Assembly (NCBI GenBank): GCA_023623095.1
Contig: JAMNXX010000253.1
Coordinates: forward strand, 1-9,199
DNA from: Bacillota bacterium
GTDB taxonomy: Bacteria; Bacillota; Clostridia; Peptostreptococcales; Thermotaleaceae
Length of the DNA stretch: 9,199 nucleotides
Direction of reading: 5' to 3'
The position numbers and the translations under genes are program-made. This document shows positions 4,251-8,129 of this stretch, piece after piece. Under the pieces are notes generated by a model. The model ran no database searches. It was not told where the DNA came from and saw only the letters and a program-made list of their open reading frames with translations. How positions within the stretch are numbered: position 1 is the stretch's first letter; every line of letters starts with the position of its first letter.

Positions 4251-4343
4251 TAGGAGTCGAACTGTCTCACGACGTTCTGAACCCAGATCGCGTGCCTCTT
4301 TAATGGGCGAACAGCCCAACCCTTGGAACCGACTTCTGTCTCA
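4251..4343 (-). pseudogene. 23S rRNA fragment (domain V, A-loop to helix 93 region)
   Basis: Read on the minus strand, about 93 bases match the part of 23S rRNA that in E. coli spans roughly positions 2500-2610. Recognisable blocks are AAGTCGG, CCAAGGGTTGGGCTG, TTCGCCCATTAAAG, GGCACGCGA, CTGGGTTCAGAACGTCG and TGAGACAGTTCG. The A-loop hairpin GGGCTGTTCGCCC is intact. Departures from my recollection of the Firmicutes consensus include GGTTCC for GGTCCC, AAAGAGGCACG for AAAGTGG or AAAGCGG, GCGATC for GCGAGC, and divergence at both ends (CTGAGACAG, TTCGACTCCTA). It is therefore a decayed piece, not a functional gene: no rest of the rRNA operon, no tRNA and no rRNA promoter flank it. Edges are set where similarity fades and are good to a few bases. 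Confidence 0.85.
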
Positions 4344-4350
4344 GAAAGAT

Positions 4351-4389
4351 AAAAAATATCTATCTTTATAAAGAAAAGATAGATATTTT
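4351..4389 (-). terminator. Terminator of the MoeA-like gene
   Basis: A perfect 15-bp stem (4353-4367 with 4375-4389) closes a seven-base loop, and on the minus strand runs into TTTTTTATC. It begins about 18 bases after the stop of the molybdopterin-binding gene. The stem is poor in GC, so efficiency is uncertain. Confidence 0.7.
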
Positions 4390-4407: not shown

Positions 4408-5430
4408 TCAACTTCTCCCAAAATAACATCGTGGATATCTACAATCTTTGCAGCCCATACATAGACCGCCTTCGCCATAGCTCGCAATTTCGTCCTCAGT
4501 GATCTCAATACCGGCAAAAACCCGGGGCAGGAACACATCAAGGCTAGTGGTAGGACTATGCATCGACGCTCCCGGCACCCCTATCAACATCGTATTGTCT
4601 AAATAAGCCATTGTAAGCATATTCCCTGGCTGCATCGGTACTCCCTGCGTAACGAGCCTTGCACCGCTCTTGCGAATCGCAGTGGGAGTCAAATCATCAG
4701 GGTCAACGGACATGCCGCCTGTCAATAATATCAATTCCGCTCCTTGCGATTTGAAATCCCTGATTGCTTCCAAAATCAAATCAAGATCATCCGGGCACTT
4801 CGTAAACTTCAGAATTTCTGCTCCATATCGATTCAATTTCTCTGTCATTATCGGTTCAAAGCGATCTTTAATTCTGCCATAATATACCTCGCTGCCCGTA
4901 ATGATCACGCCTGATTTCAGCGGTTTAAATGGCCGAACCATCAGCACGGGAGAATGCTCTTTTGCAATTCGAGCCGCTTCCAAAACATTTTGACGCTTTG
5001 TAACGAGAGGGATGATTCGAGTCCCTGCCAATTTATCTCCCTTTTTGACAGGCGTAAAATTCGGCAAGCAAGCAACGGTATAGTCAGGAACACGATTAAT
5101 CGCTTTCAGTGCTTCCCGATCGATACAAAATAGTCCGTCGATAGTGGAATTTATTTGAACTTTTCCTTCTGAGGGATTGGAATAGACCAGATTCTCTCCA
5201 CAAATCACTTTCGCCAAGGCCAATGCCGCATCATCCTCATGAACCTCGTCCGCTTTTGGATCCCACACAAAAATATGAGATTCACCGATATCCAGAAGCT
5301 CAGAGATATCTTCCTCGGTAATCACATGGCCCCTTTTAAACTTTACCCCTTTAAAGCCACCTTCAAGAATTGCCGTTATATCATGGCATAGGACTTGACC
5401 TACTGAATCCTCTACCCTTATTTTTTTCAT
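4408..5430 (-). CDS. MoeA-like molybdopterin-binding protein with C-terminal Cys cluster
   Basis: The 340-residue protein carries a MoCF-type molybdopterin-binding domain at about residues 172-305 (SGVIITGSEVYYGRI, then ILLTGGMSVDPDD at 234-246, then GVPGAS at 284-289). An N-terminal part (1-165) resembles the outer domains of MoeA. The conserved GxPGNP of true MoeA is GVPGAS, and the protein is about 60 residues shorter than usual, so insertion of molybdate itself is not assured. The C-terminus adds C-x2-C-x2-C-x4-C (Cys324, 327, 330, 335), a likely Zn or Fe-S site. This arrangement is known to me from clostridial molybdopterin-binding proteins that accompany molybdenum hydroxylases or tungsten enzymes; no such enzyme is in this window. 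GGAGG seven bases before ATG 5428-5430 fixes the start. It has its own promoter (5640-5668), a leader of about 200 nt and its own terminator, so it is a single-gene unit. The role is probably in assembly or sulfuration of the cofactor of a distant enzyme (inference). Confidence 0.8.
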   Translation of the reverse strand: MKKIRVEDSVGQVLCHDITAILEGGFKGVKFKRGHVITEEDISELLDIGESHIFVWDPKADEVHEDDAALALAKVICGENLVYSNPSEGKVQINSTIDGLFCIDREALKAINRVPDYTVACLPNFTPVKKGDKLAGTRIIPLVTKRQNVLEAARIAKEHSPVLMVRPFKPLKSGVIITGSEVYYGRIKDRFEPIMTEKLNRYGAEILKFTKCPDDLDLILEAIRDFKSQGAELILLTGGMSVDPDDLTPTAIRKSGARLVTQGVPMQPGNMLTMAYLDNTMLIGVPGASMHSPTTSLDVFLPRVFAGIEITEDEIASYGEGGLCMGCKDCRYPRCYFGRS

Positions 5431-5996: not shown

Positions 5997-7913
5997 TCAA
6001 TTGTTCAGCCCCATTTTTTGTCTTTTTTCTATGATATGATTTTCTATATCTTTTGCTGCTTCTTTTGGATCATCCCCTAAAGCAACCTTTCCTCCTACTA
6101 ATTTTTCTACATCTTCTGTCAGCAGCTGAACAAGTTTCGGTGCCCCTGTAACGAAAGGCGTAGGAGATAAATGGGTATATGCACCATATGCCACTGCAAA
6201 CATACCGTCAATGGTAGCCTTCTGCTCCATCCATTCCGGCGCCGTTACAGCAATGGGCAAATCAGGAATATCCACATCTAAATGATTAGCAAGCTCCGTT
6301 ACAAGCATCGATATTCTACCCGTATCCGTACAGGTCCCAAAACTAAGGACAGGCGGAATGTTTAGCATATTGCAAATTTCTTTCAAACCGCTCCCTGCCA
6401 TTTCCCTAGCTTCCAAGCTGCAGAGTCCTGCTACTTCCAATGCGTGATTCCCGCATCCGCCGCTGACGACAAGGATATCTTTTTTGATCAATTCTTTTAC
6501 CAAATTGACCGTATTCCAATCCTGAGGCCCATTTCGAAGGGTAGAACAATTCACTAAAGCAACGACCCCTTTGATCTTGCCTGCTGCAATGACATCTACA
6601 AGAGGATCCAGGCTGTTTCCCAAAGCTTCTAAAACCGCCTCTGTTGAAAATCCCGCGATTGCTTTCTGGATGATTTTCGGAACCTTTGGAACAATTTTTC
6701 CTTTCCTCTTTTTAAAGTTTTCAATCCCCAATTCAATCAATCGATCTGCCATCGCATCCACTTCGGCAGGGTTATACGGCAATTCATGCTGCAATCCCGG
6801 AATCCCAATAATGGTGCTAACGCTGACCAGCGTTATTTGATATTTTTCTGCATAATGATCGATGGCAGGCGGGGAACAATTTTCTTCCATCGCAATCACA
6901 TCCACCGTGCCTGTAGCCAAAAGCGGCTCAATGGATAACCAATTGCCCATCAGCCCCACAAAAACATCATCTACTTGAAATCTCTGCAGCAGCTCCTGTC
7001 CCGTTTCGATGGAGCCTACAATCCGCAGTCCCTTCGCCCCGGCCTCCTTCGCTCTCTGCTGAATTTCCGGGGTCTTCGCTTTCATCAATGTAGCAACCCC
7101 TGCCCAAGGCTGATGTCCATTGAAAACGATATTGACGTATTCTGGGTCCATGATGCCCAGATCCACATTTACTTCATGGGGTTTTGGCGTTCCAAATAAA
7201 ATATCCTGAACCATTTCCAATCCAATCTGAGCCGTGTAGATCGTCGATAGACCTAATCGCAACCCTTTTTTAGCCAAGGATACATAATCTCCATCCACAT
7301 TCGTCAAACAGCTTGCTACGGCATTTTGCTCCTCATGTACGACCCCCGCCGGGTAAATCCCAGCATCTTTCCAAACTTTTTTTCTCTTGCGCGGAGCGAA
7401 AACATCCACCATCACGCTGGGATCATCCGGATCCTTTGCCATTTCTTTTTCCAGAAAATCAGCCAGCTGGATCGCCATCTGATTGATGTCCTGACTCGTG
7501 TCAATTCCTACTTTCTCACATAACCATTTTAACTTTCCCGGATCCGCAATCTTAAAAGGAGTCTTCCCTTCTGCAGTCGCTCTCAATGTTCGGTAAGCTT
7601 CATAAGCATGATGGCTGTATGTTCCCGCTCCCATAATATTGCGCAGCAAAAAGTTTCGCATTGCCATCGCATCCGGTCCAATTCCGCAAACCCCTTTATC
7701 CTGCCCTCCCTTTTCACTAATGCGACAAGGCCCTTGGGAACAAAGCTGACAACTGAGTCCCTGCAGGCAAAATTTACATCGTATCTTTTCCTGCAATACC
7801 CACCGGTCAAATACATTGGACATTCCATCTTCCCGGATTCTTTTCAGCATTTCCTCGACAGAATCATGATAGCTGACACGCCCTTCGGTTCTTTCCATGA
7901 TGGTTTCATTCAT
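5997..7913 (-). CDS. cooS: CooS-family protein (anaerobic CO dehydrogenase scaffold), deviant CooS-V-like type
   Basis: The 638-residue protein matches anaerobic Ni-CODH subunits along its whole length. At the N-terminus, C-x2-C (Cys46, Cys49) is followed by the cluster B cysteines Cys55, 58, 63 and 76 (SCQLCSQGPCRI, GVCG). Of the cluster C ligands, His267, Cys346, Cys456, Cys487 and Cys528 and the nearby Lys565 are present. The position of Cys295 of C. hydrogenoformans CODH-II is Glu303 (VGSIETGQE). Of the proton-relay histidines only one (His102) seems kept. Known: CooS-V-type proteins that lack a cluster C cysteine can hold an Fe/S/O hybrid cluster, do not turn over CO, and react slowly with hydroxylamine. 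Inferred: this gene belongs to that type, and its physiological substrate is unknown. AGGAGG is nine bases before ATG 7911-7913 and only three before ATG 7917-7919, so the inner start is preferred. No cooC, cooF or acetyl-CoA synthase gene is adjacent, consistent with a stand-alone function. Confidence 0.9.
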   Translation of the reverse strand: MNETIMERTEGRVSYHDSVEEMLKRIREDGMSNVFDRWVLQEKIRCKFCLQGLSCQLCSQGPCRISEKGGQDKGVCGIGPDAMAMRNFLLRNIMGAGTYSHHAYEAYRTLRATAEGKTPFKIADPGKLKWLCEKVGIDTSQDINQMAIQLADFLEKEMAKDPDDPSVMVDVFAPRKRKKVWKDAGIYPAGVVHEEQNAVASCLTNVDGDYVSLAKKGLRLGLSTIYTAQIGLEMVQDILFGTPKPHEVNVDLGIMDPEYVNIVFNGHQPWAGVATLMKAKTPEIQQRAKEAGAKGLRIVGSIETGQELLQRFQVDDVFVGLMGNWLSIEPLLATGTVDVIAMEENCSPPAIDHYAEKYQITLVSVSTIIGIPGLQHELPYNPAEVDAMADRLIELGIENFKKRKGKIVPKVPKIIQKAIAGFSTEAVLEALGNSLDPLVDVIAAGKIKGVVALVNCSTLRNGPQDWNTVNLVKELIKKDILVVSGGCGNHALEVAGLCSLEAREMAGSGLKEICNMLNIPPVLSFGTCTDTGRISMLVTELANHLDVDIPDLPIAVTAPEWMEQKATIDGMFAVAYGAYTHLSPTPFVTGAPKLVQLLTEDVEKLVGGKVALGDDPKEAAKDIENHIIEKRQKMGLNN

Positions 7914-8129
7914 GTACATCTTCCTCCTGTAATCGATTCTAAATATTTGAAGAAAATAAACACTTGATTTAAGGCAAATCTTTTTGATAATGACTGCTTA
8001 CACTCTAATCTTCTCCCAAAATGTACATGAATATGTATTTCCATTGGTTTAAAGTCGCAAAACGATTCGAAATCCTTTTTAAAATCACAAGAAAATAGGA
8101 TAAAATAAATTCCTTTTCGTTGTTTTTTA

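Follow-up and report, generated by a model that had tools for sequence, protein, structure and literature searches.

The window, a 9,199-nucleotide stretch of bacterial DNA, carries on its minus strand a gene of the CO dehydrogenase (CODH) family whose product has a glutamate in place of a cluster C cysteine. The initial annotation had proposed an Fe/S/O hybrid-like cluster on a CODH scaffold, a function other than CO oxidation, perhaps in nitrogen-oxide or hydroxylamine chemistry, and a database label of CO dehydrogenase. In a protein search, 3744 proteins reached E ≤1e-100 among 7997 candidates scored; the 120 listed relatives were 82 to 100% identical, and the named ones among these 120 listed matches are indeed labeled CO dehydrogenase.

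Using phmmer and MAFFT alignments with CODH-II, CooS-V and Hcp, we located the gene and its ligand residues as follows, with residues counted, as in the initial annotation, from the Met at 7913, which gives a product of 638 aa.

5997..7919, minus strand: CooS-V-type (group D-1) gene, open reading frame of 640 aa
7767..7769, minus strand: codon for Cys49, D-cluster, equivalent to Cys41 of CooS-V (MAFFT alignment)
7617..7619, minus strand: codon for Tyr99, replacing the acid-base His93 of CODH-II (MAFFT alignment)
7113..7115, minus strand: codon for His267, cluster ligand, equivalent to His259 of CooS-V (His in 82/82 group rows and 24/24 other CODH rows)
6993..7019, minus strand: motif VGSIETGQE, residues 299-307, opposite VGICCTGNE of CODH-II (phmmer alignments)
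7005..7007, minus strand: codon GAA for Glu303, at the place of Cys295 of CODH-II, equivalent to Glu295 of CooS-V
6876..6878, minus strand: codon for Cys346, cluster ligand, equivalent to Cys338 of CooS-V (MAFFT alignment)
6546..6548, minus strand: codon for Cys456, cluster ligand, equivalent to Cys449 of CooS-V (MAFFT alignment)
6453..6455, minus strand: codon for Cys487, cluster ligand, equivalent to Cys480 of CooS-V (MAFFT alignment)
6330..6332, minus strand: codon for Cys528, cluster ligand, equivalent to Cys521 of CooS-V (MAFFT alignment)
6225..6227, minus strand: codon for Glu563, second Glu ligand, equivalent to Glu556 of CooS-V and Glu494 of HCP (MAFFT alignment)

In the phmmer alignments with CODH-IV and CODH-II, Glu303 pairs with the second Cys of GICCTGNE. 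The register is not off by one, because it is the first Cys of this motif that is replaced by Ser in entry 6dc2 (D. vulgaris C301S). The MAFFT alignment comprised 109 rows, i.e., 82 group rows (80 loci, the window and CooS-V), 24 other CODHs and 3 HCPs. Its Glu303 column holds Glu in 82/82 group rows versus Cys in 24/24 other CODH rows, with a gap in the 3 HCP rows; Glu303 is therefore neither a sequencing error nor a chance substitution. Thus, both alignments bear out the earlier reading of the motif, with Glu303 and no Cys at the Cys295 position, and His267, Cys346, Cys456, Cys487, Cys528 and Lys565, listed then as kept, are all present. The complete cluster C set of an active Ni-CODH (His plus five Cys) is broken in the window protein by the Glu at the Cys295 place. 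The Tyr99 column has Tyr in 82/82 group rows and 14 His, 7 Tyr and 3 Asn in the other CODH rows, while the Cys49 column has Cys in 82/82 group rows and Gly in 20/24 other CODH rows. Cys46, Cys49 and Cys55 form the Cys-X2-Cys-X5-Cys pattern of a type III D-cluster. Glu563, which corresponds to an additional HCP ligand, Glu494, was absent from the initial annotation; it lies two residues ahead of Lys565 and is Glu in 82/82 group rows, but its presence in 10/24 other CODH rows makes it by itself non-specific for group D-1.

The window protein scored 893.7 bits against TIGR01702 and 504.7 bits against PF03063; against the Hcp family TIGR01703 it reached 48.2 bits versus a cut-off of 360.8. Its best PDB match in phmmer was CooS-V (7b7q) with 880.8 bits, the next being a Thermococcus CODH with 451.9 bits. 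An AlphaFold model of the protein (mean pLDDT 74, pTM 0.81) has values below 50 for residues 1-77 and some ligand loops, with Cys346 and Cys456 in such stretches; Foldseek searches with this model ranked CooS-V first (61% identity, TM 0.87). In a tree of 51 rows, built by a quick search without bootstrap, group D-1 forms a single clade of 20 rows (SH-aLRT 99) that holds the window protein together with CooS-V, while the other CODHs fall outside and the HCPs stand apart. Within the clade, the window protein and the 80 loci make up a tighter set, 77 to 87% identical to the window protein, outside which CooS-V branches; the nearest tree neighbor is a C. ragsdalei protein (support 82, 85% identical). 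C. ragsdalei belongs to the same group of acetogens as C. autoethanogenum.

In the published definition of group D-1 (PMC6344411), Glu replaces the first cluster C Cys, the acid-base His is Tyr, the D-cluster is of type III, and the Lys has a Glu two positions ahead of it. The window protein carries every one of these marks (Glu303; Tyr99 with Lys565; Cys46/Cys49/Cys55; Glu563), and it is a group D-1 (CooS-V-type) member of the CODH family. Based on these marks and the place inside the D-1 clade, the kind of gene was already known, and PMC6344411 and PMC9311411 had previously put forward a CODH scaffold with a hybrid cluster for this group. By comparison, CODH-II of C. hydrogenoformans shares the fold, the Lys and all but one of the six cluster C ligands with the window protein but is only 32% identical and has Cys at 295 as well as the acid-base His. 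Hcp (E. coli Hcp and class III Hcp) resembles it in a hybrid-type ligand set with two Glu and a persulfide-forming Cys, whereas it is far in sequence (29.4 bits for 1gn9), lies outside the CODH clade and has a Glu that does not align with Glu303.

According to PMC9311411, the cluster of CooS-V is of the Fe/S/O type and is contacted by His259, Glu295, Glu556 and four Cys, of which Cys521 is a persulfide in the oxidized state; no nickel signal is reported there, and the cluster and its channel change with redox state. In the same account, CooS-V neither oxidizes CO nor reduces CO2, and the C295E variant of CODH-II is Ni-deficient and inactive. Since all contact residues of CooS-V are kept (Glu303/Glu295, the His, the four Cys, Glu563/Glu556, besides the Tyr and Cys49), the window protein is predicted to hold the same nickel-free Fe/S/O hybrid cluster as this solved, 61% identical protein; together with the shared clade, this supports the hybrid-like cluster of the initial annotation well as a prediction. 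The annotation's parallel with the Glu ligand of HCP stands for the place in the structure (PMC9311411) but not for the aligned sequence: in a profile alignment, E. coli Hcp has its Glu at the position of Glu307 (in TGQE), four residues past Glu303, so that the likeness of Glu303 to HCP Glu268 is one of structural place. This offset agrees with the view of the authors of PMC9311411 that hybrid clusters arose at least twice on this scaffold. The suggested nitrogen-oxide or hydroxylamine function finds little backing in CooS-V: its hydroxylamine reduction, with 0.13 per s and 20 per M per s, is slower than that of even a CO-oxidizing CODH, and no NO reduction above background was detected (PMC9311411).

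The closest genetic counterpart is cooS2 of Clostridium autoethanogenum (CAETHG_3899), likewise an orphan CODH-type gene, which is treated as a D-1/clade D gene (PMC6344411, PMC13056359). Its host has two further CODH genes, including that of CODH/ACS, whereas none was found in the window's genome. CO oxidation was absent from an acsA mutant with intact cooS2, and a cooS2 knockout had little effect, with a lower final density on CO, as described in PMC4895105. Transposon data list cooS2 of this species as dispensable (PMC9004356), and cooS-2 of C. ljungdahlii is lowered on syngas (PMC5640608).

Among 391 genomes of the class, 75 had a match at E ≤1e-20, and 29 of these 75, the window's own genome included, had a D-1 match (64 to 100% identity). 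Five of the 29 copies (G030, G111, G134, G259 and G364) are fragmentary or broken, with stops or frame breaks in G030:C9:10024-10880, G134:C12:3-1677 and G364:C420:344-2238, which suggests either gene loss under way in some lineages or assembly errors. By manual count, a second CODH above the TIGR01702 cut-off is present in 6/29 D-1 genomes and absent from 23/29; 16 of the 22 D-1 genomes that are at least 90% complete lack one over the cut-off. Hcp exceeded its own cut-off in 26/29 D-1 genomes and in 177/391 genomes overall. We rejected an Hcp link special to D-1, as Hcp also occurs in 40/46 genomes with only other CODHs (E ≤1e-60, manual count), a difference that is not significant. A further CODH type (loci L114, L115 and L116) has open frames of ~710-720 aa, all cluster C cysteines and 38 to 40% identity to the window protein; it is common both in the class and in the family of the window, and its three rows form one clade beside D-1.

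The window's own genome, which is 76% complete, has a single CODH, no PF03598 match and one Hcp. This Hcp gene is split over contig 125 (from 2888) and contig 118 (to 794; loci L003 and L002), whose ends share identical letters, and adjoins a ferredoxin-like ORF of 243 aa. None of 15 same-family relatives has a D-1 gene. Because of this and the incompleteness of the metagenome-assembled genome, the host of the contig is uncertain: either the D-1 gene was patchily gained or lost in the family, or the short contig was misbinned. The neighboring MoCF protein is equally near, at 47%, to one genome of the family and one from outside it.

The D-1 gene has no broadly conserved neighbors. In 81 loci, the most frequent family within 1.5 kb occurred in only 13/81, as counted over the 45 largest ORF families with the gene itself and ORFs antisense inside it set aside, and the window's neighbors (NrdG2-like, MoCF, GGT and HTH/S24) recur in 1/80 other loci (MoCF, in the C. 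ragsdalei locus L009). This lone position agrees with PMC13056359, in which the genome context of clade D is described as lacking a clear pattern, with 64% of genes without neighbors. Two features in the window lie on the same strand beyond the gene.

4408-5430, minus strand: MoCF-domain protein, 340 aa, C-terminal end rich in Cys; 20/38 other genomes searched have relatives (41-47%)
4259-4360, minus strand: lone 23S rRNA piece, RF02541 positions 2531-2632 of 2925, 68.6 bits (Rfam)

The rRNA piece sits directly downstream of the MoCF gene, its 5' part worn and its 3' part well kept, and is possibly a misassembly.

We then turn to the upstream regions, of which 79 of 81 were at least 200 nt long (the other two being too short), and 73 remained after removal of near copies. 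A search for inverted-repeat dyads revealed no excess, but its 8-mers led to a 32-bp element, and 11 patterns of known regulator sites gave none clearly over base shuffles in the 79 upstreams. De novo, a 32-column motif was found with a likelihood of 380.7 (60 starts) versus 103.9, 114.6 and 106.2 in three dinucleotide shuffles (30 starts). The better sites consist of TRTACATATTTA, some ten free positions and TGRGNAAACT, mostly 61-66 nt ahead of the start, with start codons set by rule, some of them wrongly, and that of the window re-set. Leaving out each locus and its near kin, the motif scored ≥10 in 41/79 loci, i.e., about half, versus 9 of 684 controls (the upstream regions of other genes from these loci), in runs that were seeded with the all-loci matrix and then retrained and in which related loci are non-independent. 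Of the 41 sites, 31 lie between -80 and -50. The carriers are Clostridium (17/25), Desulfosporosinus (10/15), Epulonipiscium-labelled loci (3/3), Lutispora (1/2), Gracilibacter, Fonticella, seven loci without genus and the window; the 38/79 loci below the threshold include all 3 of Peptostreptococcales and both of Acetivibrio.

Trained without Desulfosporosinus, the motif scored ≥12 in 10/15 Desulfosporosinus loci, all at -61 to -65, versus 5/684 controls; a second training split gave 10/32 left-out loci versus 2/684 controls. Both runs used random starts and the training set alone. Twelve extra D-1 loci, out of 23 upstreams from the class sample, were scored with a matrix built without them, and 6/12 reached ≥10, at -63 to -82. 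Both the Desulfosporosinus test and the added loci argue against kinship alone as the source of the element. The element was found in 0/12 Hcp upstreams (12 usable from 29 loci), and in other CODH upstreams 2/17 stretches (~700 nt each) scored ≥10, neither at about -64 of the gene. The site in the window is the following.

8008-8039, minus strand: candidate forespore-type promoter at -126 to -95 relative to the Met at 7913, motif score 12.4

This score was obtained with the window left out of training, although the starting matrix had included it, and is equaled or exceeded in 3/684 controls. Most carriers have stronger sites that lie closer to the start.

The consensus for the forespore sigma factor sigma-F is GYATA, 14-16 nt and GGNNANAHTR. 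This consensus, which is independent of our sequences, occurred with at least 10/12 matches at -70 to -56 in 24/79 loci versus 24/684 controls (Fisher p 4e-13, with kinship ignored and the interval picked after the motif position was known); these counts concern the group, and the window alone offers the weaker site at -126. In seven other 15-nt bins, it occurred in 2-6/79 cooS upstreams and 14-39/684 controls, an at most ~threefold difference. Anywhere in 160 nt, a loose measure, it was found in 44/79 cooS loci, 152/684 controls and 17/22 spoIIR upstreams. The sigma-G consensus was slightly raised (43/79 loci versus 293/684 controls), a weaker excess than that of sigma-F. SASP genes are expected to be forespore genes; in their upstreams, 3/11 usable loci (11 of 30) had the sigma-F and 7/11 the sigma-G consensus.

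Like the promoters of spoIIR and other sigma-F genes, the element has a two-box layout, in which the -35 box contains ATA and the -10 box begins G-rich, and its spacing is identical to that in the spoIIR upstreams of the same genomes. It differs in a longer conserved run (TACATATTTA) and in that most sites read ACATA instead of GYATA. In C. difficile, a G before the -10 box marks sigma-F promoters and an A after it sigma-G promoters (PMC3789822), and many element sites carry this G. A motif derived from 22 spoIIR upstreams was discarded, as it was driven by near-identical Desulfosporosinus-type sequences. A sigF/sigG-type gene is present in 28/29 D-1 genomes (the miss, G346, is 71% complete), compared with 268/362 other genomes (p 0.002) and 33/46 genomes with only other CODHs (p 0.006; manual count). 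The element resembles a sigma-F promoter, from which we infer the sigma factor. The open literature as covered here, including PMC3789822, PMC7494833 and PMC3738446, gave no sporulation link of a D-1 gene. The context, a lone gene with a forespore-type promoter candidate, appears new, in contrast to the kind of protein.

Judged from sequence, we favor on balance that the window gene encodes a D-1 protein predicted to hold a nickel-free hybrid cluster and not to use CO, and that in spore-forming Clostridia the gene is probably transcribed in the forespore from a sigma-F-type promoter. The cluster type, from the solved 61% identical protein, the sigma-F reading of the element and the forespore as site of action are inferred, and a redox role there may follow. 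In the most likely mechanism, low-potential electrons would enter via the [2Fe-2S] and [4Fe-4S] clusters, the reduced cluster would open its channel, as in CooS-V, and a small oxidized compound (a reactive oxygen, sulfur or nitrogen species) would be reduced at the cluster, so that the forespore or its metal enzymes would be protected. More tentatively, and in our estimate somewhat short of an even chance, the CooS-V-type "CO dehydrogenases" of Clostridia may in general be forespore proteins, in which a CODH scaffold was made into a hybrid-cluster reductase under sigma-F control; a family filed under carbon metabolism would then belong to the sporulation program.

The same hybrid-cluster protein could instead be a vegetative, Hcp-like stress enzyme that removes hydroxylamine, NO or peroxide, with the element read by another, e.g., a general-stress, sigma factor. 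The HCP-like ligand set (our alignment; PMC6344411) and the frequency of Hcp in D-1 genomes relative to all genomes point this way, yet Hcp is as common with other CODHs, no Hcp upstream carries the element, and the hydroxylamine turnover of CooS-V is very slow, with NO reduction unseen in PMC9311411. In C. difficile, sigma-B induces cooS (CD0174) along with genes of nitrosative stress (PMC7494833); however, CD0174 sits in a group with two oxidoreductase genes, whereas the D-1 gene stands alone, and for this reason CD0174 probably belongs to another clade. We regard the stress-enzyme explanation as possible but rather unlikely. The protein might also be a redox sensor or regulator rather than an enzyme, its cluster shifting with redox state and the protein signaling. 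Redox sensing or regulation has been suggested for clades C and D (PMC13056359), and the redox-dependent change of the CooS-V cluster and channel would fit, but the 81 loci lack a conserved partner gene nearby, and a complete cluster chain and channel (PMC9311411) suggest turnover, making a sensor improbable. A working Ni-CODH in spite of Glu303, as favored by the family labels, the five of six cluster C ligands kept along with Lys565, and M. acetivorans genetic data (cited in PMC6344411) that suggest a D-1 part in CO oxidation, is very improbable, given that CooS-V, whose ligands are identical, contains no Ni and acts on neither CO nor CO2, that C295E CODH-II is likewise Ni-deficient and inactive (PMC9311411), that Tyr99 replaces the acid-base His and that cooS2 of C. 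autoethanogenum fails to sustain CO oxidation (PMC4895105).

For the solved CooS-V-type enzyme, the one substrate described is slow (PMC9311411). If the forespore reading of the D-1 gene is true, its conserved forespore-type promoter would provide a place and a time at which to seek the role of these enzymes, and the CO dehydrogenase label would mislead metabolic reconstruction. In PMC5630571, for example, C. beijerinckii CODH genes, with a reported 77.62% identity to the CODH of C. ljungdahlii that is non-clustered, are listed among C1-capture genes, and the CODH so listed is probably the D-1 gene.
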